From positions 1 through 24,322 of IMG/VR virus record IMGVR_UViG_3300020214_000120: 24,322 nt of DNA, one strand, 5' to 3'. Source of the DNA: a virus. The notes under the pieces were generated by a model. It had not been told where the DNA came from, did not search any database, and worked only from the letters and a program-made list of their open reading frames with translations. Positions 7,670 through 23,906 of this stretch are shown piece by piece; the stretch's first letter is position 1; each line of letters begins with the position of its first letter. Made by a program: the position numbers and the translations under genes.

Positions 7670-10600
7670 TTAGGTTCTCTCCCTGTAGGCGCGTTGCTGC
7701 TGCTCGAGCGCGGCCACGACCTGACGGGCGATGGCGGTCTCCGACTGGCCCGGTGCCCCGTAGACGTTCAGGGTGACGTTCTGGTTCATGGTCCCGGCCG
7801 TCCCGGCGACGAGGCTTGACCGCGGGGTTCTGGTGTTGCCGATCGGCGGGACGACGTGCAGGTGCCTGCTGCCGGCCCAGCCGTGGAACTCGGCGAAGCC
7901 CCCGGCGTTCGAGATCATCTTCTGGTACTGGCCGAGGTTGTCCCCGGTCAGGTCGTAGGCCCTCCCGGCGGCGTGGTCGGAGCTCATGGACCAGAGGTTG
8001 TCGAAGCGGAGCGCACTGGTGACGGTCCGCTTCCCCGTCAGCAAAGAGTTGAACTTTGCGTGGGCCGCCATCGTCCCCCTGAGCGCCCTGGAAGTCGGGG
8101 TGTCCCCGACCCGACCCCTGCGAGGGGATCTGGTGTCGCCCTCCACCAGTTTCAGCGTGTTTCCCGTTGCCTGCCACGTGTAGTTCTTCATGTCGCCCCA
8201 CCACTTCGGGGCTTCGCCCTCCCAGATTTCTGGCTTGTTGTCGAAGGCCGTCGTGATCGCGTTGCCTATTTCCTCGGCAAATTTCTTCGCATTTTGGTTC
8301 CACACGAGTCCGACGTCTCCCGCTACCTCGTAGACCTTGGAGGTCTCCGTGGCGAAAATCCCTTCGTCCAGCCGATCGGCACCAACACCAAGACCGGTCG
8401 GCTTCATAATTGCGGCTACCAGCGCCTTTCCGGCTGGGCCGACCTTCGACAGCTTGTCCAGATTGAGATTTCCGCCCTTGTCCAGTAATTGGCCCGTGCT
8501 GATGAAATTGAGGAGGTTCGTCTTCTCCTGGTCGCCAAATTTTTCGTCCCCGAAGATTTGGGTGATGATGCCCTTGAGCCTGTCGGCCGCTCCGAGGTTC
8601 TTGAACACGAACCCTTGCTCGGCCATGCCCCCCAAAATCTGTTGCATGCCGAGGCCCGAGATTTGCGATAGTTGCGTTTCGTACGCCGTTTGGGCCTCTG
8701 CCTGACCCTCGTTGGCGAACGAACCGAGCAGACCCGCGTCCATCTTTCCGAAAGCTCCCAGATTTCCCTGAGCGAAATCTCTGGTCGCCGAGAGAACGGC
8801 GAACAGGTTGTCGGGGTTGTCCGCCTGCGTGCTGGAGACGAGCAGCCTGGCGTAATCCCTGAAGTCGTCCATCGTGGCCGTTCCGCCCAGGCCCATCAGC
8901 CTCTCCTTGCTGGCAGTGAACGCCTGAACTTCCGCTCGCCTCTTGATCGATTCGTCGAACACGTTCAGCGACGCCGTGCCGATGTCCCTGATCGCCACTT
9001 TCATCTCGTCGACGGTCTTGCGAGTGACGAGGCCCAGCGCCCCGATCTGCTCGGTGAGCGATTTCGTCGGGTCGCCCAGGTCCACGTCCATCTTGGACCC
9101 GAGCGCCATGATCTCCTGCTCGGTCTTCCCGGTCATCTTGGCAAGGTGCCGGACCACGAAATTGCCGCGCTTCATCATGATGTCTGCGACCTCAAACCTG
9201 CCGAGACCCTCCTCGGGGAGGAACAGCTCGCCCCTTGCGCTTTTGCCCCTCGTCCCGCCCTCCGTGCCGCGCGCAAAGAAGTCCTCGGCCCTTCGTATCC
9301 TGGTGTTGGCGACTCTTTCGCCCGCTTCGTTGATCCTGAATCCGAGATTTTCTTCCTGGAACCCCGCCACCATGGCGTCAAAACTTTTCATCGCCTTGGT
9401 GTCGCCACCTTCCGCCTGCTTGAGGTACTCCTTCATCTTTTTGTATTCCGACTTCTTCATCACGCCGGTGTTCCTCATTCCCTTGAGGATCGTGGATCTG
9501 CTGGCGTTGAGGGCCATGTCCATTGCGAGAAGTTCGGAAGGCAGCGTTGACGTCGGCATATTCGCAATTTCTCGGTTGCCCGCGACTAGGGTTCCAATGC
9601 CCATTTCGGAGATCATCTTCTGCTGCTTGTCGATCTGGCTGATCCCTCTCTGGAAGCTGCTCCCCCCCGTGGCCTGGACCAACCTGCCCGTTTTCGGGTC
9701 GACCCTCGCGCCGACCATGGCCGCGACGATCTGACCGCTCATTCTTTCGCCGATGCCGGCACCGATCTTTTTGGCCTCCCTCTCGCGGTTGCCCTGCGCC
9801 CTGAAGTAGCCGACGATGCCGCCGATCAGCGCCGAGCCCCCGATGATCGCGGCCTTGGCGACCGGACCAGAAAGTCCAAAGACGGGGCCGAGCGTGTCGG
9901 AGATCGTCTTTCCGACGGCGGCGCCGGCGAGCGCCCCGCCCATCATGGACTTGCCCGTGCTTGTCGATTTCATCAGCGTCAGACCGGCGGCGATTCCCAT
10001 TCCTCGGGCCCCGAACATCGCCCCGATTCCGAGGGCGTTGTTGGCGGCCGACCGCATGTCCTTGTCGCCGATCTTTTCCGTCACCCCCGTGGAAAGGAGC
10101 ATGCCGCCCATCAACCCCATCATCGGGTTGAACGTTTTGCGCATGCTCGCCTGGGCGCTCTCGCCCAAGCCCTTGAACATGGCGCCGGTGCGACCCTTGA
10201 ACTGCTGCCTCGCGAACGCCCGTTCCGCCGCCCTCTTGGATTTGCCGCCGTCGTCCCTAATTTTGCCAGTTTCCTTGTCGACCCACTTTCCCGCGCCCTG
10301 CCTGTCCTTCTCCAACATCTCGTTGAACGCCGTCAACCTCGCCGTCTGCAGCGCGGTGGCTTGAAAGGGAGCCAAATCTCCCAACCCCATCCCAGCGGCG
10401 CCAGCGGCTAGTCGCGCCTGTTCCAAATCGGCCCCCATCCTCTTGCCGCTGAGGGTCTTGAAAATGCTCTCCCTCGTGACGGGACCCGTGCTCACGCCGT
10501 CGAAGGACCCCTGTATGGTGCCGCCACGCAAGAACTCCCTGAGGGTGCCCTTCCCGTACATGAGGTCCCTCTGGGCGTTCCGCATTTTCATGTGCTGCTC

Positions 10601-12877
10601 GACGACGGGGGCCTGTGCCGCCGCAATCAACTTGGCTTGCTTGTCCGCGGGGAGCATCATGAACGCCGCCGGACCGGCGGCGCCACCACGGCCGACGTAG
10701 GTGTTTCTGACATTTTGTTCGGCTGCTGCCAAATTGTTCCTCAGATTCACCGAGTTGAGGTCGCCACGATCTATAGCGTTGAATGCCTTATCGCCTAACA
10801 TGTAGGCTCGGTACGCCCCCAGGTCGGCGAAACCGGTCCTCTCAAAGCCGTTGCTCGCGAACGCCCGCACGTTTTTCCCGAGACCCATCATCTCCGCACC
10901 CTTGACCAAGGTTCTGTCGTAAACGAAAGTACCCGGGTCGTGGTACGACCTTCCCGCATCCTTCATGTTCTGGACATAGGCCACGTTGGCCGCGACCTCG
11001 GCTGGGGTCAGCCTCATGGTGGCGGCGTTACCCGTGTACCTTGACCTCGAGAACATAGCCGGGATGCCGCCGAACATGCTCCGGGGGGAATTACGCGCCC
11101 CGTAGACCGATGCCTGGTTCGTCAGGTCCTTGACCGTTCCGCCGCCGCCGCCCCTGCGCATCCTGTAGGCCGTCCTGCTTCCCTTGAACCCGCCGAACAT
11201 CAGGCCGAGGGTGAAGAGCGTGCCGATGCCCGGTCCGAGACCGCCTCCGACCGTTCCGCTGGGTCCGCCTCCGGATCCGCCCATGCCGAGGAACCCCCCA
11301 CCGCCCCCCAGTTTGAACGTTCCGATCCCCCTCACGAGTGACGCCATCCCGTTGATCAGTTTGGTGAGGATGTTCACGATCGAGGTGAGCACGGGCAGGG
11401 CCTCGGTGAAGGCGACCTTGAGCGCGGCGAACCAGTCGCCTATGGCGAAGATCAGCCTCTCGAGGGCGCTCCCCCAGGCCTTGAACTGCTCCTCGTTGTC
11501 CTCGGCGAGGTAGCCGAGCTGCTCGGCGTTCCTGCCGAAGATCCTGAATATGGCGAGCAGCGGACCCTTGAATGTCTCGGTGATTATCCGCGACCCCTCG
11601 CGGAACTTCTCAAGGGAGTTCTTGAACTGGTTGAACGACTTCATGAACGAGGCCGACGTCCTCTTGAACCACTGCGACGCTCCGAACAGCATCGGCAGGT
11701 ACTTCCTGACGAGGGTGACGGAGAATTTCTCGAGCGCGTTGCCTATCGTCGTGATCGCCGGGAACAGCTTGTTCTTCCCGAAGAAGGTGAACTCCGGCGC
11801 CAGTCTCGCGAACATGTTGCGCACGTTCTTGAACAGCCCGTCCAGCACCCTTCGCGCGTCGTTGAGGAACTGTTCTCCGAAGTCGGCCATGTCCGTCGCG
11901 AGGGCGACGGTTATCTGCTTGAACTGCGCGACGAGTGTCCCCTTCATCGACCCGAACTCGCCGCTGACGCCCGCCTGCTGGGCGAGCTTGCCGCTCGCCA
12001 TGGACGCCATGATGCTCGCCGCGTCCTTGCCCTTCGACTTCTTTATCGCCTCCGCGAACTCCTTGCTGACCCCCGACGCGGCCGTGCTCGCCTTGCCGGT
12101 GACCTTGCCCTCCTTCTGCAGTATCGCGACGAAGTTCGCCATCGCCTGGAACGACTTGGCCTGGTCCTGCGACCTGGCGGTGAAGTCCATGGCGCCGGAC
12201 AGCGCCTTGGTCTGCGCCCCGGTGACCCTGCCCTGCTGGGACATCGCCTTGTACGCCTGCGTCAGGTTCATGACGCCCATCGTCGCGAGGTTGGTGTCGG
12301 TGTACAGCCCCCTCATCGCGGCCGCCGCCGCCCCGGTCGCCGAGCCGTAGACGTTGGCGCCCTTGTACTGCCATGCCGAAGCCGCGGCGTTGAACTCCCT
12401 GAACGCCGCCACCGCAGTCGTCGCGGCCACGGCCACCGTGGCCAGCGCGGCTCCGACGGCTCCGAGGGCGAGGTTGTACCCCTTGGCCACTATCTTGCCG
12501 GCCTTGAACAACAGGTTGACCGACGCGAGCGTCGCCGCCGTTATCACGAACTCGGCGGCGAGGGCGATCAATTGGAAGAAGAGCAGTCTCGCCGCCTTCT
12601 TGAAAAAACCCATCACCCTCGCGCCCGCGGTAAGGTTCTTCTGGAGTCTCTTGCCGGAGTTGTCCAGCGCCGAGAATCTCTTCCTCATCGCGGCCATCGG
12701 CTCGTCGGCTTCCCTGGCCGTCCTCGACATCCGCCTCGTCGATTCCCTGAACCTGTCGCCGGATTCGCTCGCGCGATCGGCCGCCTCGGAGAACGCCTGT
12801 ATCTCGGCGAGGACCTGCGCCATGTCGCGGCGGTTCGCCTCGAAATCTATGCGTATTGTGACTATTTCGTCGGGCAA
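7670..12877 (-). CDS. Tail tape measure protein with C-terminal peptidase-like domain
   Basis: This is the largest gene, 1735 residues. The start is TTG at 12877 with GGGAG six to seven bases upstream. The protein has a coiled N-terminus (VLAEIQAFSEAADRASESGD), hydrophobic stretches around residues 95-160 and a glycine-rich block near 515-560. A glycine-zipper membrane-type segment lies near 960-1040 (AAIIGGSALIGGIVGYF), and long helices fill the rest. Length, alanine/glycine content and position between chaperone and baseplate genes identify the tape measure, which sets tail length and enters the envelope at infection. Near the end, residues 1633-1642 (SDHAAGRAYD) and 1671-1674 (RHLH) give the His/Asp and His-x-His pattern of M15/ARB_07466-like peptidoglycan peptidases. 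A usual tape measure tail (NVTLNVYGAPGQSETAIARQ) follows. The peptidase activity is inferred. Confidence 0.9.
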   Translation of the reverse strand: MPDEIVTIRIDFEANRRDMAQVLAEIQAFSEAADRASESGDRFRESTRRMSRTAREADEPMAAMRKRFSALDNSGKRLQKNLTAGARVMGFFKKAARLLFFQLIALAAEFVITAATLASVNLLFKAGKIVAKGYNLALGAVGAALATVAVAATTAVAAFREFNAAASAWQYKGANVYGSATGAAAAAMRGLYTDTNLATMGVMNLTQAYKAMSQQGRVTGAQTKALSGAMDFTARSQDQAKSFQAMANFVAILQKEGKVTGKASTAASGVSKEFAEAIKKSKGKDAASIMASMASGKLAQQAGVSGEFGSMKGTLVAQFKQITVALATDMADFGEQFLNDARRVLDGLFKNVRNMFARLAPEFTFFGKNKLFPAITTIGNALEKFSVTLVRKYLPMLFGASQWFKRTSASFMKSFNQFKNSLEKFREGSRIITETFKGPLLAIFRIFGRNAEQLGYLAEDNEEQFKAWGSALERLIFAIGDWFAALKVAFTEALPVLTSIVNILTKLINGMASLVRGIGTFKLGGGGGFLGMGGSGGGPSGTVGGGLGPGIGTLFTLGLMFGGFKGSRTAYRMRRGGGGGTVKDLTNQASVYGARNSPRSMFGGIPAMFSRSRYTGNAATMRLTPAEVAANVAYVQNMKDAGRSYHDPGTFVYDRTLVKGAEMMGLGKNVRAFASNGFERTGFADLGAYRAYMLGDKAFNAIDRGDLNSVNLRNNLAAAEQNVRNTYVGRGGAAGPAAFMMLPADKQAKLIAAAQAPVVEQHMKMRNAQRDLMYGKGTLREFLRGGTIQGSFDGVSTGPVTRESIFKTLSGKRMGADLEQARLAAGAAGMGLGDLAPFQATALQTARLTAFNEMLEKDRQGAGKWVDKETGKIRDDGGKSKRAAERAFARQQFKGRTGAMFKGLGESAQASMRKTFNPMMGLMGGMLLSTGVTEKIGDKDMRSAANNALGIGAMFGARGMGIAAGLTLMKSTSTGKSMMGGALAGAAVGKTISDTLGPVFGLSGPVAKAAIIGGSALIGGIVGYFRAQGNREREAKKIGAGIGERMSGQIVAAMVGARVDPKTGRLVQATGGSSFQRGISQIDKQQKMISEMGIGTLVAGNREIANMPTSTLPSELLAMDMALNASRSTILKGMRNTGVMKKSEYKKMKEYLKQAEGGDTKAMKSFDAMVAGFQEENLGFRINEAGERVANTRIRRAEDFFARGTEGGTRGKSARGELFLPEEGLGRFEVADIMMKRGNFVVRHLAKMTGKTEQEIMALGSKMDVDLGDPTKSLTEQIGALGLVTRKTVDEMKVAIRDIGTASLNVFDESIKRRAEVQAFTASKERLMGLGGTATMDDFRDYARLLVSSTQADNPDNLFAVLSATRDFAQGNLGAFGKMDAGLLGSFANEGQAEAQTAYETQLSQISGLGMQQILGGMAEQGFVFKNLGAADRLKGIITQIFGDEKFGDQEKTNLLNFISTGQLLDKGGNLNLDKLSKVGPAGKALVAAIMKPTGLGVGADRLDEGIFATETSKVYEVAGDVGLVWNQNAKKFAEEIGNAITTAFDNKPEIWEGEAPKWWGDMKNYTWQATGNTLKLVEGDTRSPRRGRVGDTPTSRALRGTMAAHAKFNSLLTGKRTVTSALRFDNLWSMSSDHAAGRAYDLTGDNLGQYQKMISNAGGFAEFHGWAGSRHLHVVPPIGNTRTPRSSLVAGTAGTMNQNVTLNVYGAPGQSETAIARQVVAALEQQQRAYRERT
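7800..8080 (-). other. M15/ARB_07466-like peptidase domain in the tape measure
   Basis: Approximate domain limits are residues 1600-1692 of the tape measure protein. Visible candidate zinc ligands are H1635 and D1642 in SDHAAGRAYD, and H1672/H1674 in SRHLHVVPP; E1663 in GGFAEFHGW is a candidate catalytic acid. The spacing 'S-x-H-x-x-G-x-A-x-D ... H-x-H' is the family signature. Such domains in tape measures are thought to open the peptidoglycan locally during DNA entry. The limits are by eye. Confidence 0.72.
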
Positions 12878-12907: not shown

Positions 12908-13584
12908 CTAGCCAGAGTTATCCGCTTCTTTTCGTTCCCTCTCGCGGTCCGCAGATATAACTTTAGCACAGGCGTATCTGACCAGCCACTCGTGCAGCGA
13001 GGAGTCAAGCAACCTGACGGGGTCCGTACCCCATAGCTCCCCTAATCGAGCGGCGGCTACGACGCGGTTGTCTTCCGACAACTCCTCGATTAGTTCTTCG
13101 TAGGGTTTTCCGTTGACTCAGCCTGGATCGTGTCGCCGAAACCGCAGGCGTCGATTATCGCCAGCGCGGCGGCCTCGACGTGCGCGTCGATGCCGAAGAA
13201 TTTCTGCACGCAGTCCGGGATCGCCTTGTCGGTGCCCGTCATCTCCAGGATCGGCTTGGATGCGAACCCGACCGGCCACGAGTCGTCGAGGACCTCCTCG
13301 CCCTGCAGGAAGACGCCCTTGGTCGAGTGGGCGACGACGGTGCAGGCGAACTTGGTCGCGTCGAGACCCTTCTGTGTCTCGCTGCCGCACTGCTTCTGCC
13401 AGTTGCGGATCTGGGCTTGCGTGAGGTTCGGGCTGACGAGCAGCTTGACGCCGGGTCGCTCGGGGACCTCGATGTACACCCTCGGTCTCTCCACCTTCTT
13501 GGCAATGACGGCCTTCAGCTGGTCGAGCAGGGTTGGTTCTTGAGCGTTTGTTGGTTGCATGTTTGCTGGTGTGATTTCGTCCAT
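12908..13584 (-). CDS. Tail assembly chaperone, long frameshifted form (gpGT-like, 225 aa)
   Basis: This is the product expected when ribosomes slip back one base at AAACCCT (13102-13108). The first 161 residues are shared with the short chaperone, and the last 64 come from the -1 frame. They begin YEELIEELSEDNRVVAAARL, continue GELWGTDPVRLLDSSLHEWL and VRYACAKVISADRERE, and end at TAG (12908-12910). The -1 frame is closed upstream by a TGA about 20 bases before the slip site and has no start codon of its own with a ribosome site, so it can only be read by slipping. In lambda and most long-tailed phages the equivalent gpG/gpGT pair guides tube polymerisation around the tape measure. The coding character of the extension (helical, charged, GC-rich third positions) supports its reality. 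Confidence 0.78.
13090..13584 (-). CDS. Tail assembly chaperone, short form (gpG-like, 164 aa)
   Basis: ATG at 13584 gives a 164-residue protein ending with TAA at 13090. It contains VYIEVPERPGVKLLVSPNLT, then QIRNWQKQCGSETQKGLDAT and a long middle with EMTGTDKAIPDCVQKFFGI, ending in a polar tail (QAESTENPTKN). A small alpha/beta protein between tube and tape measure, with a slippery sequence just before its stop, is the standard setting for the tail assembly chaperone. It is not expected in the finished particle. The ribosome site is weak (AGG about nine to ten bases upstream), so the amount made may be kept below that of the tube. The identification comes mostly from position, the frameshift signal and general composition. 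Confidence 0.82.
   Translation of the reverse strand: MDEITPANMQPTNAQEPTLLDQLKAVIAKKVERPRVYIEVPERPGVKLLVSPNLTQAQIRNWQKQCGSETQKGLDATKFACTVVAHSTKGVFLQGEEVLDDSWPVGFASKPILEMTGTDKAIPDCVQKFFGIDAHVEAAALAIIDACGFGDTIQAESTENPTKN
13102..13108 (-). other. Programmed -1 frameshift site AAACCCT
   Basis: On the minus strand the frame-0 codons are GAA-AAC-CCT, so the heptamer reads A-AAC-CCT, the exact X-XXY-YYZ form. After a one-base slip the two tRNAs would sit on AAA and CCC. The frame-0 stop (TAA) follows three codons later, and the last -1 frame stop (TGA) lies a few codons before, leaving a window of about nine codons in which the slip must happen; AAACCCT is the only heptamer of this form in it. Confidence 0.8.
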
Positions 13585-13679: not shown

Positions 13680-14126
13680 CTACGCCTGGATGTTCAGCGG
13701 AACGGGTCCGCCCTGGATGGAGAAGGTCATGGCGTAGGTGGCCGGTGCCCCCGACGACGCGTCGCCGTCCGGCTCGGTGAGCCCGACGAGAAGGGCGTTG
13801 TTGTACTGCCTGTCGGCCTTCTGATCCTCGATGTCGCAGTTGACCTTGTGGATGTAGATGTTGTAGAAGATCCTGCCTATGTGCTGGCGGGCGACGTTCA
13901 GGTGCACCCTGTCCGCGTCGTCGTAGTGCCTGGTCAGCGTGATGTCCCCGACCTCGGATGGGGCGCAGAGGAGTTCCGGGAACTTGCCCCCGCCCACGTA
14001 GATCTTCTCCACGGCGGCCGTGATCTCCCCGCCGGACACCTGGGCAAAGAAGTTCTGGAAGGCGGGGGCGATCGCTCCGACCGGCTCAAGCTTCGCCAGT
14101 ATCTGTCGCTGCGTGTATTTTGCCAT
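13680..14126 (-). CDS. Tail tube protein
   Basis: This is a 148-residue protein with ATG at 14126 and an ideal GGAGG eight bases upstream. It opens FQNFFAQVSGGEITAAVEKI, with YVGGGKFPELLCAPSEVGDI then TLTRHYDDADRVHLNVARQH, a pattern ('G-G-x-F-P-E-x-x-x-x-x-x-x-x-D-I-T-L-x-R') found in gp19/T4-type tube proteins. The middle and end are beta-rich (ATYAMTFSIQGGPVPLNIQA). Hexamers of this protein stack into the inner tube through which DNA and tape measure pass. It follows the sheath gene after 15 bases, the usual sheath-tube pair. The tube proteins of contractile tails are about this size. The strong ribosome site fits a protein made in many copies. Confidence 0.88.
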   Translation of the reverse strand: MAKYTQRQILAKLEPVGAIAPAFQNFFAQVSGGEITAAVEKIYVGGGKFPELLCAPSEVGDITLTRHYDDADRVHLNVARQHIGRIFYNIYIHKVNCDIEDQKADRQYNNALLVGLTEPDGDASSGAPATYAMTFSIQGGPVPLNIQA

Positions 14127-14141: not shown

Positions 14142-15602
14142 CTAGGCTAGTGATGACGTGATGTTGGACTTGGAAATCTCGACCTCGATCGTCTCACCGA
14201 TGGACGAGATCCTGACTCCGACCCTCGCCTTGACCGTCCCGGTGGCGAGTTGAGTGACTGGGTTCAGCTGCGCGTTGACCGTGACCTTGTAGCCCGGGTC
14301 CAGCTGCTTGCCTGAGGCCAGGAACTTGGGGAACAGCGCGCCCGCCGTCGCCAGCGGGTCGAGGATGCCGTAGAGCACCGATTCCACCTCGGCGAACAAC
14401 GATCCGCGGCCGTCGATGACGTTGAACACGAGTCGCTCCAGTCTCTCCTCGGCCTGCGAGGTGATGTAGTTCAGTATCTCCCTGGCCGTGATGAACCTGA
14501 AGTTTTCCGTGTCCGAGGATGCAGACCTCGCTCCGTAGATCCTGACGTCTCCGTTGATGACCCTGATCGGGTTCACGAAACCGTCGTTGAGCGTGTTGGA
14601 TTCCGCCCCGGTGACCGTGTGGTACGTCCCGAGGGCGAAGGATGAGTTGGTCAGCGATCCGGCGTACGCCGTCCACGGGCCGAGCTCGTTGTGCAGCTTC
14701 GCCCTCTTCGCGGCGACGAAACCCTCGCACGGGACGGAGAGGACGAGGCCGTTCCTCGTGATCTTGACCCACGGGTAGTACCAGGCGGCGTACTCGGCGC
14801 CCTCGTACTCGCTGTGATCGGCCGCTTCCTGCACCGATTCCGCAACGGTGTTCTCCCTGTCGAATCCGAGCAGGGCGACCCTGTGGGTGTCCACGGCGTG
14901 GTCGGTTAGCCCCTCCCAGATGGTCGTGCCATACAGACCGGGCAGGCAGACCGATCCGGTGCCGAGCGTGTTGGTGAATGCACCGAGCGCCGTCACGTAT
15001 TGCGCCGAGGTTGGCGCACTACCCGCGGCACCGCCCGAGAACGACACGCCGGCCGCCACGGCTGGAATTCCCGCCCCAGCGCCGACAGTCGCCGTCACGT
15101 AAAGCGAGGCCACAGCGCTGTTGTTGATCTCCTCGACCGCGTCTTCCTTGTTTGTCAGCACGGGGGTCGAATAGACGACCACGTCGTCAAGCAGGATCCT
15201 GACCCTGAAAGTCTGGCTGGCTGTCGGTTGCGTCACCTCGGCCTCGAGCTGGGTGTTGGCCCAGGTTCCCTCGCCCGATGCGGTGAGGGTAAGGACGGTT
15301 GCGGGCGTTGCGGCGGAGTTGTTCAAACTTGCCGTCGCGGCTGTCGCGCCTGTCCCGATTGCCCTAGAGACGTAGGCCCTTGAGCCACCCTCCTCGAAGA
15401 AGGTCTGGAGCGTCTGGTGGACGTATCCACTAGATGTGTAGCCCCCGTAGATGTCCTCAAATTGATCGAGGCTCTGAACCAAGAACGCGGATCCCTCTGG
15501 TCCGCGGGTTGTCACACCGGCGACGAAGAGCGTTGAAGTTGGCGAGACTGTCAGCGTTGACGGACCACTGACTACCGATGTCGTTAGGATTACTCCAGGC
15601 AT
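14142..15602 (-). CDS. Tail sheath protein
   Basis: The protein has 486 residues, with ATG at 15602 after GGAGG seven bases upstream. The N-terminus (MPGVILTTSVVSGPSTLTVS) and the following TLFVAGVTTRGPEGSAFLVQ, then VHQTLQTFFEEGGSRAYVSR, are classic sheath: 'F-V-x-G-x-x-x-R-G-P' and 'F-F-x-x-G-G-x-x-x-x-x-x-R'. The C-terminal domain has RIYGARSASSDTENFRFITA, then LVFNVIDGRGSLFAEVESVL and PLATAGALFPKFLASGKQ. Sheath C-terminal domains carry the conserved interlocking strands that let rings contract. It is coupled with the tube gene downstream and preceded by a 79-base AT-rich gap with promoter-like sequence. Together with the tube it proves a contractile tail. Confidence 0.94.
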   Translation of the reverse strand: MPGVILTTSVVSGPSTLTVSPTSTLFVAGVTTRGPEGSAFLVQSLDQFEDIYGGYTSSGYVHQTLQTFFEEGGSRAYVSRAIGTGATAATASLNNSAATPATVLTLTASGEGTWANTQLEAEVTQPTASQTFRVRILLDDVVVYSTPVLTNKEDAVEEINNSAVASLYVTATVGAGAGIPAVAAGVSFSGGAAGSAPTSAQYVTALGAFTNTLGTGSVCLPGLYGTTIWEGLTDHAVDTHRVALLGFDRENTVAESVQEAADHSEYEGAEYAAWYYPWVKITRNGLVLSVPCEGFVAAKRAKLHNELGPWTAYAGSLTNSSFALGTYHTVTGAESNTLNDGFVNPIRVINGDVRIYGARSASSDTENFRFITAREILNYITSQAEERLERLVFNVIDGRGSLFAEVESVLYGILDPLATAGALFPKFLASGKQLDPGYKVTVNAQLNPVTQLATGTVKARVGVRISSIGETIEVEISKSNITSSLA

Positions 15603-18757: not shown

Positions 18758-19318
18758 CTACCTGTCGGGGTTCGGTGGCCTCTCGAACTGGGGCCTCTCG
18801 TCGTGACTCGCCTCTATTGGGATCCACGCCTTGGAGTACGAGTGCTCGGCGACCTTCCTCATTTTGACCAGCGACCCGTCCAGCAGGACCTGGAACTCGT
18901 CGGTGGTCATACCGAGGGTCAGCATCAGGGATTCCCTGCTGTGGGCGCCCGACTTGATTATGGTCCTGACCACGTGCGAGAGTCTTGCGTTCATGACCTG
19001 GCCCCTCGCCCTGTTCAGGGTGACGTGCATGATCATTGCCTCGGTCTCGGACAGGTTCGGGAAAACGACGACGGGGACGAAGCGACCCTCGATCATGAGT
19101 TGCGGCGTCGCACTTGCGAGCGCGAGCCTCTCGTGACCGTCGACCACCAGAAGCCCCCCGTCCTCGGCCTTGCCGCATGCGACAATCGGGAAGATCCACC
19201 CGTACCTGTGCAGCGAAGTGGCCAGCAGGCTCAAATCGGGTTTGACTATGTAGGTGGCGCGCCACGGGGCGCTCCTCAGGACGCTCGGTTCCAGCTTCTC
19301 GTACCGACCCTCACTCAT
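18758..19318 (-). CDS. ParB-like domain protein, short (186 aa), IbrB-like partner of PAPS-reductase-like protein
   Basis: The protein has 186 residues, with ATG at 19318 overlapping the stop of the PAPS-reductase-like gene by eight bases. Residues about 20-100 form a ParB-type domain: KPDLSLLATSLHRYGWIFPI, then LLVVDGHERLALASA and VPVVVFPNLSETEAMIMHVT. The motif DGHER (residues 60-64) corresponds to the GERR-like nucleotide-binding box of ParB/Srx folds. The C-terminal half is helical (LSHVVRTIIKSGAHSRESLM) and may bind DNA. Such proteins are encoded with PP-loop ATPase partners (IbrA/IbrB type) in bacteria and phages; a biochemical role for the pair is not settled. There is no ParA, centromere-like repeat or helix-turn-helix, so plasmid-type partition is unlikely. 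Confidence 0.8.
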   Translation of the reverse strand: MSEGRYEKLEPSVLRSAPWRATYIVKPDLSLLATSLHRYGWIFPIVACGKAEDGGLLVVDGHERLALASATPQLMIEGRFVPVVVFPNLSETEAMIMHVTLNRARGQVMNARLSHVVRTIIKSGAHSRESLMLTLGMTTDEFQVLLDGSLVKMRKVAEHSYSKAWIPIEASHDERPQFERPPNPDR

Positions 19319-20441
19319 CGCTTTCCTCTGCGTTCTCCCTCTTCGCTATTCCGAAGGCTTTCGTGCCCGGTCCCATCGGCGTCGGGGAGGCGGCGGTGAA
19401 CTCGTTCAGCAACAAGGTCCGAATCAACCAGTGGATCGGGTAGCTCTTCGGGTCGTTTCGCATCTTCATCCTGAACTTCGCGCAGAACGCCTTTGCGTAG
19501 TGACGGTCCGACTCGCTCATCATGTGATCGTCTATGCACGCCTTCACCCCGTCCCAACCGTAGCGGGCGTAGCCCATGATCAGCTTCTCGACGTCGTAGT
19601 CGGCCCACAGCCTCCGCTGGGCGTCGATCATCGGCCAAACCCTCTGCAGCTGGTCGAAGAAGAACGGTTCGGTGACCATGAGATCGCCCATCCTCCTCGC
19701 CGCCACGCAGTACAGGGGTATGCCGACCCTCGTGTTCGATCCGGTCATCGCGGCGACGTCGTAGTACTCGCAGTACTCCGCGCCGTGCTCCTCGGCGACG
19801 AACCTGAGCACGTCGTCGCTCGTCCAGTCGTAGATTATCTTCGCAAACCTCAGCGGGAGGTTCCTGGGCGCCTTGTACGGTGCGACGATGTAGTTCTCGT
19901 GAAGCTTCTGGACGAGGGACCTGTACCTGACCATGGATTCGTTCGCCCTCACGCCCGTCAGGAAGGCCGTCCTCCCCTTCTTGCCCTGCATGGTCCAATA
20001 GTCGGTGTCCCCCATATCCTTGTCCCTGCTTAGCCCGAACGATTCCGCGTTTATGGCGAATTTCGGCATCGGCCTGACGAGACGACCCTCCTTCTCCCTC
20101 AATCCGGACCAGGTCATCTCGGTCGTTCTCTTGCCCATTGACCACACCTCAACCCCGACGGAGAGGCAGTACCACTCCATCTCTACCCAGTCATAGTTCC
20201 TGACCTTCTCCACGAAATCTATGACCATCGGACTGACCATCTCCTCGTCCCTGAATATCGCCCTGACGGGACCGAGACCGCGCTCCTCGTGCAACTCCTT
20301 GGCGAGGTGGAGCACGGCCGTCGAGTCCTTGCCCCCGGAGAACTGCACGCAGACCGTGTCGAACGTGTCGTAGACGTGCCTGATCCTCTTTCTCGCCGCG
20401 TCCACGCATGTCATGTCAAGGTAGAGGCGCTTGCGCGGCAT
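19311..20441 (-). CDS. PAPS-reductase-like PP-loop protein (IbrA/DndC-like)
   Basis: The start at ATG 20441 (MPRKRLYLDM) is chosen because GGAG lies five to six bases upstream and the codon overlaps the preceding stop as TGATG; a longer frame starting at 20543 overlaps the upstream gene and lacks this support. The 376-residue protein has the PP-loop FSGGKDSTAVLHLA (SGGKDS at residues 35-40), the following HLAKELHEERGLGPVRAIF, and further on TAFLTGVRANESMVRYRSL, where 'G-V-R-A-x-E-S-x-x-R' is the second PAPS-reductase signature. This family uses ATP pyrophosphatase chemistry, adenylating a substrate. A sulfur role (PAPS reduction, DndC phosphorothioation) is known only for some relatives; no Fe-S cysteine motif stands out here. 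It is sandwiched between two ParB-like genes with 1- and 8-nt overlaps. Confidence 0.85.
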   Translation of the reverse strand: MPRKRLYLDMTCVDAARKRIRHVYDTFDTVCVQFSGGKDSTAVLHLAKELHEERGLGPVRAIFRDEEMVSPMVIDFVEKVRNYDWVEMEWYCLSVGVEVWSMGKRTTEMTWSGLREKEGRLVRPMPKFAINAESFGLSRDKDMGDTDYWTMQGKKGRTAFLTGVRANESMVRYRSLVQKLHENYIVAPYKAPRNLPLRFAKIIYDWTSDDVLRFVAEEHGAEYCEYYDVAAMTGSNTRVGIPLYCVAARRMGDLMVTEPFFFDQLQRVWPMIDAQRRLWADYDVEKLIMGYARYGWDGVKACIDDHMMSESDRHYAKAFCAKFRMKMRNDPKSYPIHWLIRTLLLNEFTAASPTPMGPGTKAFGIAKRENAEESDE

Positions 20442-21238
20442 CAGAACTCCGCGTTCGTGCTTATGAAGTCGATCAGCTTGGATGCCGTGGTCTCGCCGAC
20501 GTATGCGGGGTCGTTCCTCAGGTACCTGATGAAGTCGTACCATCTCTTTTGTTGCACGGCGTCGTCGAACACGAGCGTGTACTGCACTATCGCCCTCTCC
20601 CCGCCCCTGACGCCGACCGCCGTGCTTCCCCTCGTGATCGCCTCCTCCTTGTCAACCGAGTCCGTCGCGATGTAGTCGATTTCGTCATTTTCGTTTTTCG
20701 TCTCGACGATCCGTTCGTCGTCTGCGGTCTGGAACGGGTTGACTATCACCGCCGGCGTGTACCCGCCCCGGTTGTCGTTCCTTTCGTTGGTGATGATGTC
20801 CATGTTTATGGAGGCGACCTCGAACTCGTCCCAGCCGAGACCGAGAAGCAGGTCCGGATAGTCCGAGGAGATCTCCGATATGAGGTCGAGCACGACCTGC
20901 TGGTCGGTGTTTCCCAACTCCGTCGTCCTGTTGTCGGCGAGGGCGAACGCATGACCGCGACTTTCGTCGACGTCGTAAACGATCGCCGCCATTTTTTTCC
21001 ATCCCAGCTTCTTGGCGGCGATCAGCTGGTGATTGCCGGCTATCACCGAGTACTTTCCGTCCCCGGCGGGCATGACGACTATCGGCTTTATTTGTCCGAA
21101 CTCCTTGTAGGAGGCGACGATTGACTCGATGTTGCCGATGCGTGGGTTCTTCTCCATCGGCCTGAGCAGGTCGATGCTGACGGCGAGCCCAGCGAGGGAG
21201 GGGTGGATGTTCCCGTCGTCGTTGTTTTCGTCGTTCAC
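20441..21238 (-). CDS. ParB-like domain protein, long (265 aa)
   Basis: The protein has 265 residues; GTG at 21238 overlaps the previous stop (GTGA). Residues about 18-130 form the ParB-like domain of the type also found before DNA methyltransferases: VSIDLLRPMEKNPRIGNIES, then IVASYKEFGQIKPIVVMPAG, KYSVIAGNHQLIAAKKLGW and AFALADNRTTELGNTDQQV. The box normally ending in arginine (GNHR) reads GNHQ here, with Q71 in place of the expected residue. Residues 130-265 are unassigned: acidic middle (VETKNENDEIDYIATDSVD) and end (FDDAVQQKRWYDFIRYLRND). Together with the PAPS-reductase-like protein and the 186-aa ParB-like protein it forms a three-gene cassette. No helix-turn-helix is evident. Confidence 0.8.
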   Translation of the reverse strand: MNDENNDDGNIHPSLAGLAVSIDLLRPMEKNPRIGNIESIVASYKEFGQIKPIVVMPAGDGKYSVIAGNHQLIAAKKLGWKKMAAIVYDVDESRGHAFALADNRTTELGNTDQQVVLDLISEISSDYPDLLLGLGWDEFEVASINMDIITNERNDNRGGYTPAVIVNPFQTADDERIVETKNENDEIDYIATDSVDKEEAITRGSTAVGVRGGERAIVQYTLVFDDAVQQKRWYDFIRYLRNDPAYVGETTASKLIDFISTNAEF

Positions 21239-22292: not shown

Positions 22293-22697
22293 TTACGTTT
22301 TTTTCCAGCCCTCAACGGAAAGACCCAATTCAAAGGCTTTTTGCGGATATTTTCCGATTCTTTCATGACACGGCCTGCACACGGCCATGAGATTTTTCTC
22401 TTCGAGTATCGAGCCGCCCTGCGATCTGCGCACGAGCTCGTGGACGTCCTGCGCTGGTTTGCGGATGTACGTGACCCTGCCGTCATCCTTGGCGAACAAG
22501 GGGCACGCCTCGCACCATTTCCTCTCCGTCAGAATCCTTCGGACGACGGCCCGTCGCTCGACGTAAATCGACTCAGTTTTTTTGGAGCGACTCCTGAGTT
22601 TTGTTCTCTTCTTCGGGGGCGCCGAGTCTTTCGAACGCCCAGACTCCGTTGAGCGCTTTGTAGAGTGCTTCATCGGCTGGCGTCGTCTCAATGTCAT
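22293..22697 (-). CDS. HNH endonuclease
   Basis: The protein has up to 134 residues (ATG at 22697; ATG at 22673 is an alternative, and neither has a well-spaced ribosome site). The N-terminal 50 residues are very basic (KRSTESGRSKDSAPPKKRTK), probably for DNA contact. The HNH core has Cys62-x-x-Cys65 (WCEACPLF), the catalytic DVHELVRRSQGG (H86), N102 in EEKNLMAV, and Cys107-x-x-Cys110-His111 in CRPCHERI. Two CxxC pairs form the zinc site usual in phage HNH proteins. It may take part in packaging or recombination, or be a free-standing nuclease. Its start lies inside the end of the upstream gene: 125 bases overlap with the ATG at 22697, or 101 with that at 22673. Confidence 0.85.
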   Translation of the reverse strand: MTLRRRQPMKHSTKRSTESGRSKDSAPPKKRTKLRSRSKKTESIYVERRAVVRRILTERKWCEACPLFAKDDGRVTYIRKPAQDVHELVRRSQGGSILEEKNLMAVCRPCHERIGKYPQKAFELGLSVEGWKKT

Positions 22698-23121
22698 ACC
22701 TCAAAAGATACATCCTGTGGGCCTCTATGGCGTCACGGCACATCTCGTAGAGATTCTCCCGGTCGGCGCCGGTCGCCTTTTGCAGCGAGATCATGCCGGC
22801 GACGTCGGAGACGCGCTTGACGACGTAGAACTTGAAGCGATCGGCCTTGGCGATTTTGCTCTCGTAGTACATCTTCGCTTCCACCCCCAGCCTCACGCCG
22901 TCCTCGCCGAGACTCAGGTACCTCTTGTCGTCGGCGATCATGTCCTGCGTCAGGCCCTCGATCTGCCGGTTCAAATTATCCAGCAGGGCGTTGAGTGCCC
23001 TCATCCACCTGTCCAGGTTGTGCGACTGGCAAAGGAACTGCTTGTGCTCGTCCGACGCCTTGTTCTTGACTTCCTGCGCCACCATGTGCGCAAAGGCGTC
23101 GTCGCTTATGTAGTGGTTCAT
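22573..23121 (-). CDS. Helical protein of unknown function in the recombination operon (182 aa)
   Basis: ATG at 23121 overlaps the stop of the Cas4-like gene (ATGA); a much longer frame beginning at 23475 lies over that gene and is rejected. The 182-residue protein (MNHYISDDAFAHMVAQEVKN) is nearly all helical, with DRWMRALNALLDNLNRQIEG, then GVRLGVEAKMYYESKIAKAD, RFKFYVVKRVSDVAGMISLQ and an acidic end (APEEENKTQESLQKN). I do not recognise a family. Position between an exonuclease and an HNH nuclease suggests a role in DNA processing. The last 42 codons or so overlap the HNH coding frame. Confidence 0.72.
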   Translation of the reverse strand: MNHYISDDAFAHMVAQEVKNKASDEHKQFLCQSHNLDRWMRALNALLDNLNRQIEGLTQDMIADDKRYLSLGEDGVRLGVEAKMYYESKIAKADRFKFYVVKRVSDVAGMISLQKATGADRENLYEMCRDAIEAHRMYLLRYDIETTPADEALYKALNGVWAFERLGAPEEENKTQESLQKN

Positions 23122-23906
23122 TTTTTTTCCTTCTTCCAATACTCGCATATCGTATCCTTGAAGAAGCACCAATTGCAAAGCTTCGTCGGTTTCGCCGGCC
23201 AGTTGTTGTCGTTGAACGACGCGACGATGGCGTCGTACGTCTCGGTTATGAGCCTGTGCACCTCGTCCAGTTTCGATTGGTCCACGAGCCTGATGAACCG
23301 CTTGCCGTCCCTGAGGTACAGGAGCTCCACCGAGCCGATCGGGCGCTCGGACACCCCCGAGAGGAGCGTCGCGTAGATCATCAGCTGTATGAACTTGTCG
23401 TCGACGTACGGCTCGCGCGGTGTCTTGCCGGTCTTGTAGTCGGATATGCGAACCATCCCATCGTCGACGAACCACCTGTCGATGAAGCCCTTCACCCTGA
23501 CGCCACCCACCCTGCCGTCAAGCTCCGTTTCCACGCCGCCGACGGTTACGGCCGATGGTTGCTCGACCCTGAATATGTTCTCCAGGCACCACCACGCCGA
23601 CCACCTGAATTTTTGCGCTTCCTTCTCGGGCACGACACCCCTTATCCGGTCCGCCCACTTTCCGTCGGACCACACGGACGTGCTGAGCGACCTCAACGAT
23701 GTCGCGGTCCTCTGATCGGGGTCCAGCGACCCGTAGAACGACTCGAGGACGTCGTGGACGAAGTTCCCCAGCAGGGTCGCCTGCGTCGGGGGTTCCTGTA
23801 TCTGGTTGACGCGGGAGTACTTGTACTTCAGCGGGCACTGCGAGTACGTCGCCAGCGAGGATGGCGAGACATACTCGGGTAGCTCGTATGGGAGCGGGTC
23901 CGACAT
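23118..23906 (-). CDS. Cas4/RecB-type PD-(D/E)XK nuclease with Fe-S cysteines
   Basis: The protein has 262 residues, with ATG at 23906. Motifs in order: the PSSLATYSQCPLKYKY start with Cys24; GNFVHDVLESFYG with His51; VKGFIDRWFVDDG (Asp143); RISDYKTGKTPRE (Asp156-x-Lys158); the QLMIYA helix (Gln174). Near the end, Cys244-x-x-Cys247 and Cys254 occur in LCNWCFFKDTIC. Cys24 with the C-terminal three is the Fe-S layout of the Cas4/AddB group. Active-site residues are intact, so it is probably an active exonuclease or end-resecting enzyme. It follows an annealing protein with a six-base gap and is likely its partner, as exonuclease/annealing pairs are in phages. It is not near any CRISPR component. 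Confidence 0.88.
   Translation of the reverse strand: MSDPLPYELPEYVSPSSLATYSQCPLKYKYSRVNQIQEPPTQATLLGNFVHDVLESFYGSLDPDQRTATSLRSLSTSVWSDGKWADRIRGVVPEKEAQKFRWSAWWCLENIFRVEQPSAVTVGGVETELDGRVGGVRVKGFIDRWFVDDGMVRISDYKTGKTPREPYVDDKFIQLMIYATLLSGVSERPIGSVELLYLRDGKRFIRLVDQSKLDEVHRLITETYDAIVASFNDNNWPAKPTKLCNWCFFKDTICEYWKKEKK

Follow-up and report, generated by a model that had tools for sequence, protein, structure and literature searches.

The tail gene cluster and its overlapping frames

The window, by which we mean the whole stretch of DNA analysed here, is a 24,322-base virus record whose recognisable genes all lie on the minus strand. As both a sheath and a tube gene are present, the phage, which is uncultured, is contractile-tailed, a morphology that is not lambda-like. 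The genes that bear on the locus and its surroundings are as follows:

14142..15602, minus strand: tail sheath protein (profile match, phrog_23, E=3.4e-37)
13680..14126, minus strand: tail tube protein (profile match, phrog_5102, E=3e-18)
13090..13584, minus strand: frame-0 tail assembly chaperone (G-like), 164 aa, C-terminus ...ENPTKN and stop (open reading frame; phrog_5088, E=3.2e-8)
7670..12877, minus strand: tape measure protein candidate, 1735 aa, next gene 3' of the chaperone (from length and position)
18758-19318, minus strand: ParB-like gene (phrog_2159)
19311-20543, minus strand: phosphoadenosine phosphosulfate reductase-like gene (phrog_2302, E=3e-71)
23118-23906, minus strand: exonuclease gene (phrog_69)

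The frame-0 product belongs to the tail assembly chaperone family, both by its phrog_5088 match and by tblastn to annotated Gordonia phage chaperones (E down to 2e-12), which are the closest annotated chaperones at 22-30% identity. Its gene sits between the tail tube gene and the 1735-aa frame, for which a profile search gave no confident match and which stands where Gordonia phages have their annotated tape measure genes. The reductase-like, ParB-like and exonuclease genes adjoin the neck and tail module; an AAAAAAC heptamer is also found near the end of a 300-aa open reading frame (22573-23475, minus strand) that overlaps the exonuclease gene and may be spurious.

The 3' end of the chaperone gene reads, on the minus strand, GAG TCA ACG GAA AAC CCT ACG AAG AAC TAA, and contains the elements of a candidate -1 frameshift:

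13120..13118, minus strand: TGA stop in the -1 frame, 5' of the slip site (sequence)
13108..13102, minus strand: slippery heptamer A-AAC-CCT, read as AAA CCC in the -1 frame (sequence; conservation in relatives)
12908..13102, minus strand: -1 frame extension (T-like), 64 codons at 13102..12911 and TAG at 12910..12908 (sequence; homologous extensions)

The heptamer AAACCCT fits the canonical X_XXY_YYZ pattern (XXX YYY) in register with frame 0 of the chaperone frame at 13584..13090, and is followed by three sense codons (ACG AAG AAC) and then TAA. As the -1 frame is closed by the TGA at 13120..13118, a shift is confined to an interval of about 10 codons; from 13117 this frame is open to the TAG at 12910..12908. 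The extension that would be read after slippage, YEELIEELSEDNRVVAAARLGELWGTDPVRLLDSSLHEWLVRYACAKVISADRERERKEADNSG, is 64 aa long, with RERERKEADNSG near its C-terminus, and joining it after ...ENP gives a predicted fusion product of 225 aa. CCT, the Pro codon of the heptamer, accounts for 7.4% of the window's proline codons. An earlier note, made from the sequence, had placed the heptamer in register three codons before the frame-0 stop, and had described a -1 frame open from just before the slip site to 12908 with a 64-aa extension that simple ORF calling misses; the coordinates of both features proved exact, and the ORF list indeed holds no frame of at least 60 aa in the -1 frame of the extension.

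Taken by itself, the window sequence makes a weak case for frameshifting: of the 7162 codon pairs in its genes, 33 (0.46%) form an in-register X_XXY_YYZ heptamer, which corresponds to a chance of about 4-5% in the interval of some 10 codons between the two stops, and at a -1 frame stop rate of 1.2% per codon a 64-codon open frame is expected by chance with a probability of about 0.47. Neither the length of the open frame nor the mere occurrence of a heptamer was accepted as evidence, and it is the comparative evidence, namely the conservation of slip site and extension, that lifts the frameshift above chance.

Conservation of the slip site and the extension

Conservation in relatives and comparison with known chaperone families had both been named in the earlier note as checks. 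A search with the chaperone as query recovered 21 closest IMG/VR relatives, all of which (21/21) carry the identical slip site GAAAACCCT and an open extension that is strongly conserved as protein and, unless truncated at the edge of a contig, 61-65 aa long. A search with the extension only returned 80 loci and then 80 more; adding the window and two genome contigs gives 163 loci and 90 distinct sequences. All 90 carry the -1 extension, which measures 62-75 codons with the Pro codon as its start, and the donor frame, at 159-206 codons, is long and is -1 throughout. Heterozygosity at the three codon positions of the extension, read in the -1 frame, is.306/.165/.606 across the 90 sequences, a pattern of variation that shows the extension to be coding in that frame.

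The slip site itself is A-AAC-CCT in 33 of the 90 distinct sequences, G-GAC-CCT in 56 and T-GAC-CCC in one, the 56 G-GAC-CCT relatives thus not having strict X_XXY_YYZ sites. In 89/90 the codon before the slip pair ends in the first base of the next codon, while the amino acid it encodes is variable: the base before AAC is A in 33/33, in a codon for E, V or I, and the base before GAC in the GAC-CCT cases is G in 56/56, in a codon for V, S, E, A, L or T. All 89 R-RAC sequences have C as the third base of the Asn/Asp codon and CCT as the Pro codon (89/89), and the third bases at codons -3 to -8 are variable among the 90 sequences, unlike that of codon -2. The sole relative without R-RAC-CCT, L183 (L183:1490-1525), reads T-GAC-CCC-ACG; its -1 frame meets a TGA immediately ahead of CCC, so that a perfect slip of a single tRNA on C-CCC is the only one left. 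On a quick maximum-likelihood tree, the A/G state of the slip site needs 3 switches, 1 of them forced by strongly supported branches, and so few changes of state mean that the 90 sequences cannot count as that many independent tests.

More distant homologues extend the comparison to annotated phages. The Gordonia phages (Bendigovirus and kin: GMA6, Schomber, UBSmoodge and DalanDe) have the same gene order as the window, several of their records carry joined chaperone CDSs, and the GMA6 record notes the chaperone as the product of a conserved programmed translational frameshift. The window's extension taken alone matched no PHROG or Pfam family in a profile search; the window-family extension profile aligns to the Gordonia/Cantare extension with an hhalign probability of 98%. 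The Gordonia phages have C-CCT-TTG as slip site, which lies a codon to the 3' side of the window's; Brevibacterium phage Cantare and Arthrobacter phage Abba each have a homologous -1 extension after a Pro codon CCT, at C-CCT-TTA and C-GAC-CCT-ACC, respectively. The CCT proline codon at the shift is therefore common to the window family, the Gordonia phages, Cantare and Abba.

Predicted RNA structure downstream of the slip site

Folding of the window places a putative stimulatory stem beyond the heptamer:

13042..13093, minus strand: putative stimulatory stem with 9-bp arms, 13093..13085 CUAAUCGAG and 13050..13042 CUCGAUUAG (folding; arm-codon conservation)

The predicted stem starts 8 nt 3' of the heptamer and encloses an inner 6-bp hairpin (13082..13077/13072..13067). 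Among 8 sequences of the clade, the codons of its arms, CTA ATC GAG and GCT CGA TTA, show no synonymous change, while nearby codons do change. The 9-bp stem is confined to the window's own clade, and the downstream RNA of the window is not unusually stable, with a folding z of only -1.2 to -1.3.

Across the family, a downstream RNA structure is nevertheless indicated by predicted folding. Among 40 loci taken as representative, mean folding z is -2.3 for the 45 nt immediately 3' of the slip, with 21/40 loci below -2, whereas at ten further offsets within these loci it averages +0.03 to -0.64 (Mann-Whitney p=2e-10, a value that is inexact as the loci are related), and averaged pair probabilities over the family suggest a hairpin that begins about 5-9 nt after the slip. 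This putative hairpin was followed in an alignment of 37 relatives, comprising 34 G-GAC sequences, the T-GAC sequence L183 and 2 A-AAC sequences (L109 and L168) and excluding the window's clade. Its positions pair in 73% of cells, as against 28-41% when the hairpin is slid along the alignment, and double-change cells number 40, as against 18 +/- 3.3 in shuffles, counts to be read with the fact that the hairpin was chosen partly from the same sequences later used for pair counting. The predicted downstream hairpin is thus supported by covariation in these 37 mainly G-GAC relatives. Testing lent no support to a further small stem (columns 33-44), RNAalifold on the pooled A-AAC or the pooled G-GAC set gave no common structure, and in the Gordonia phages a search for unusual downstream RNA structure found none.

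Probable slippage mechanism and relation to known systems

Judged from these sequence comparisons, a programmed -1 ribosomal frameshift very probably produces two forms of the tail assembly chaperone from one gene, a confidence that comes from a slip site kept in about 90 distinct relatives. The chaperone, the -1 frameshift and the 64-aa extension proposed in the earlier note all find support in the family match, the gene order, the conservation of slip site and extension, and the joined genes in homologues. Most likely, the tRNA-Asn on AAC and the tRNA-Pro on CCU would slip back together by one base onto AAA and CCC, aided by an RNA hairpin a few bases 3' of the slip site, and translation would continue in the -1 frame; the identity of the slipping tRNAs, like the frameshift efficiency, is inferred. 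One gene would in this way yield a 164-aa chaperone in abundance and, in minor amount, a 225-aa version with a 64-aa C-terminal domain. A fixed base before AAC or GAC fits such two-tRNA slippage, since a slipped tRNA must re-pair at the first position.

A serious alternative, which we consider possible though distinctly less probable, is that the proline tRNA slips alone (C-CCU to CCC-U), with the preceding Asn or Asp codon as a mere helper and A-AAC and G-GAC as two contexts of one proline-centred site. It would account for the CCT codon shared with the Gordonia phages, Cantare and Abba, and for L183, where tRNA-Pro can re-pair perfectly and GAC would slip onto TGA; it also avoids the middle-position G-U pair that a slipped Asp tRNA would need at G-GAC. 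What it leaves without a role is the identity of the base before AAC or GAC with the first base of that codon in 89/90 sequences, which a proline-only slip does not need, and it is this regularity that leads us to favour tandem slippage.

The remaining explanations dispense with a ribosomal frameshift. That the -1 frame is open fortuitously after the chaperone stop would be unremarkable given the chance figures for the window, in which neither the open frame nor an in-register heptamer is rare, but is very improbable once the protein-like conservation of the extension, the near-invariant slip site across 90 sequences and the homologous joined genes of the Gordonia phages are considered. We give equally little credence to a separate small protein translated beyond the chaperone stop, whether by re-initiation or by coupling: the GenBank records of Cantare (L027:3091-3198) and Abba (L028:3058-3198) do annotate a short separate hypothetical protein, and no joined gene, where the extension lies, yet the homologous region reaches back to the Pro codon, 5' of the frame-0 stop, the window's clade has no conserved ATG early in the -1 frame, and the conserved heptamer would be left unexplained. 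Transcriptional slippage, for which a short run of four A at the slip site might speak, can be set aside almost entirely, as the runs that provoke it are normally much longer homopolymers and the G-GAC-CCT relatives have no A run.

Frameshifting in tail chaperones is textbook as a phenomenon, the lambda gpG/gpGT type having reportedly been described by Xu, Hendrix and Duda in 2004. The window shares with lambda a chaperone before the tape measure gene, the -1 direction, a slip few codons before the frame-0 stop, a short C-terminal extension and, as predicted here, a two-form output, and its assignment to the lambda G/GT class appears well supported, the likeness being one of layout. It differs in its contractile tail, its candidate downstream hairpin and its slip site, AAACCCT, that of lambda being G/A-rich. 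By analogy with the lambda products, as reviewed in PMC5009743, the short form would coat the tape measure protein, as gpG does, and the extra domain of the long form would recruit tail tube subunits, as gpGT does.

The earlier note's further suggestion, that AAA-CCC adds to the heptamers in use, holds only in part. For the three-three motifs of frameshifts annotated in actinophages, PRFect (PMC10885494) already reports every one of the four bases at each position, and AAACCC by itself is thus no new class. The literature searched, which covered few subscription papers and so does not prove absence, contained no report that names AAACCCT or GGACCCT as the slip site of a tail gene. Less expected is the proline-centred motif seen throughout the family, with its non-canonical G-GAC-CCU, the majority form among the relatives. 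On balance we think it rather more probable than not that a large clade of uncultured phages uses proline-centred R-RAC-CCU with a nearby hairpin, the base before the Asn/Asp codon being kept equal to its first base, and that G-GAC-CCU is a further natural -1 slip motif. If true, this motif, lying outside strict X_XXY_YYZ, would be missed by strict-heptamer predictors. The frameshift itself supplies the full-length product of a chaperone gene that ordinary gene calling truncates, and does so for a clade whose distinct members number in the dozens. Two interchangeable slip sites, a C-CCC single-slip variant and hairpins form a natural test set, and the comparison bears on how strictly tandem -1 slippage needs first- and second-position re-pairing. 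One low-GC relative, L110 (PBNR01000003.1), keeps GAAAACCCTACGAA in a MAG labelled Gammaproteobacteria, a label that may be a binning error, as the annotated relatives infect Actinobacteria.
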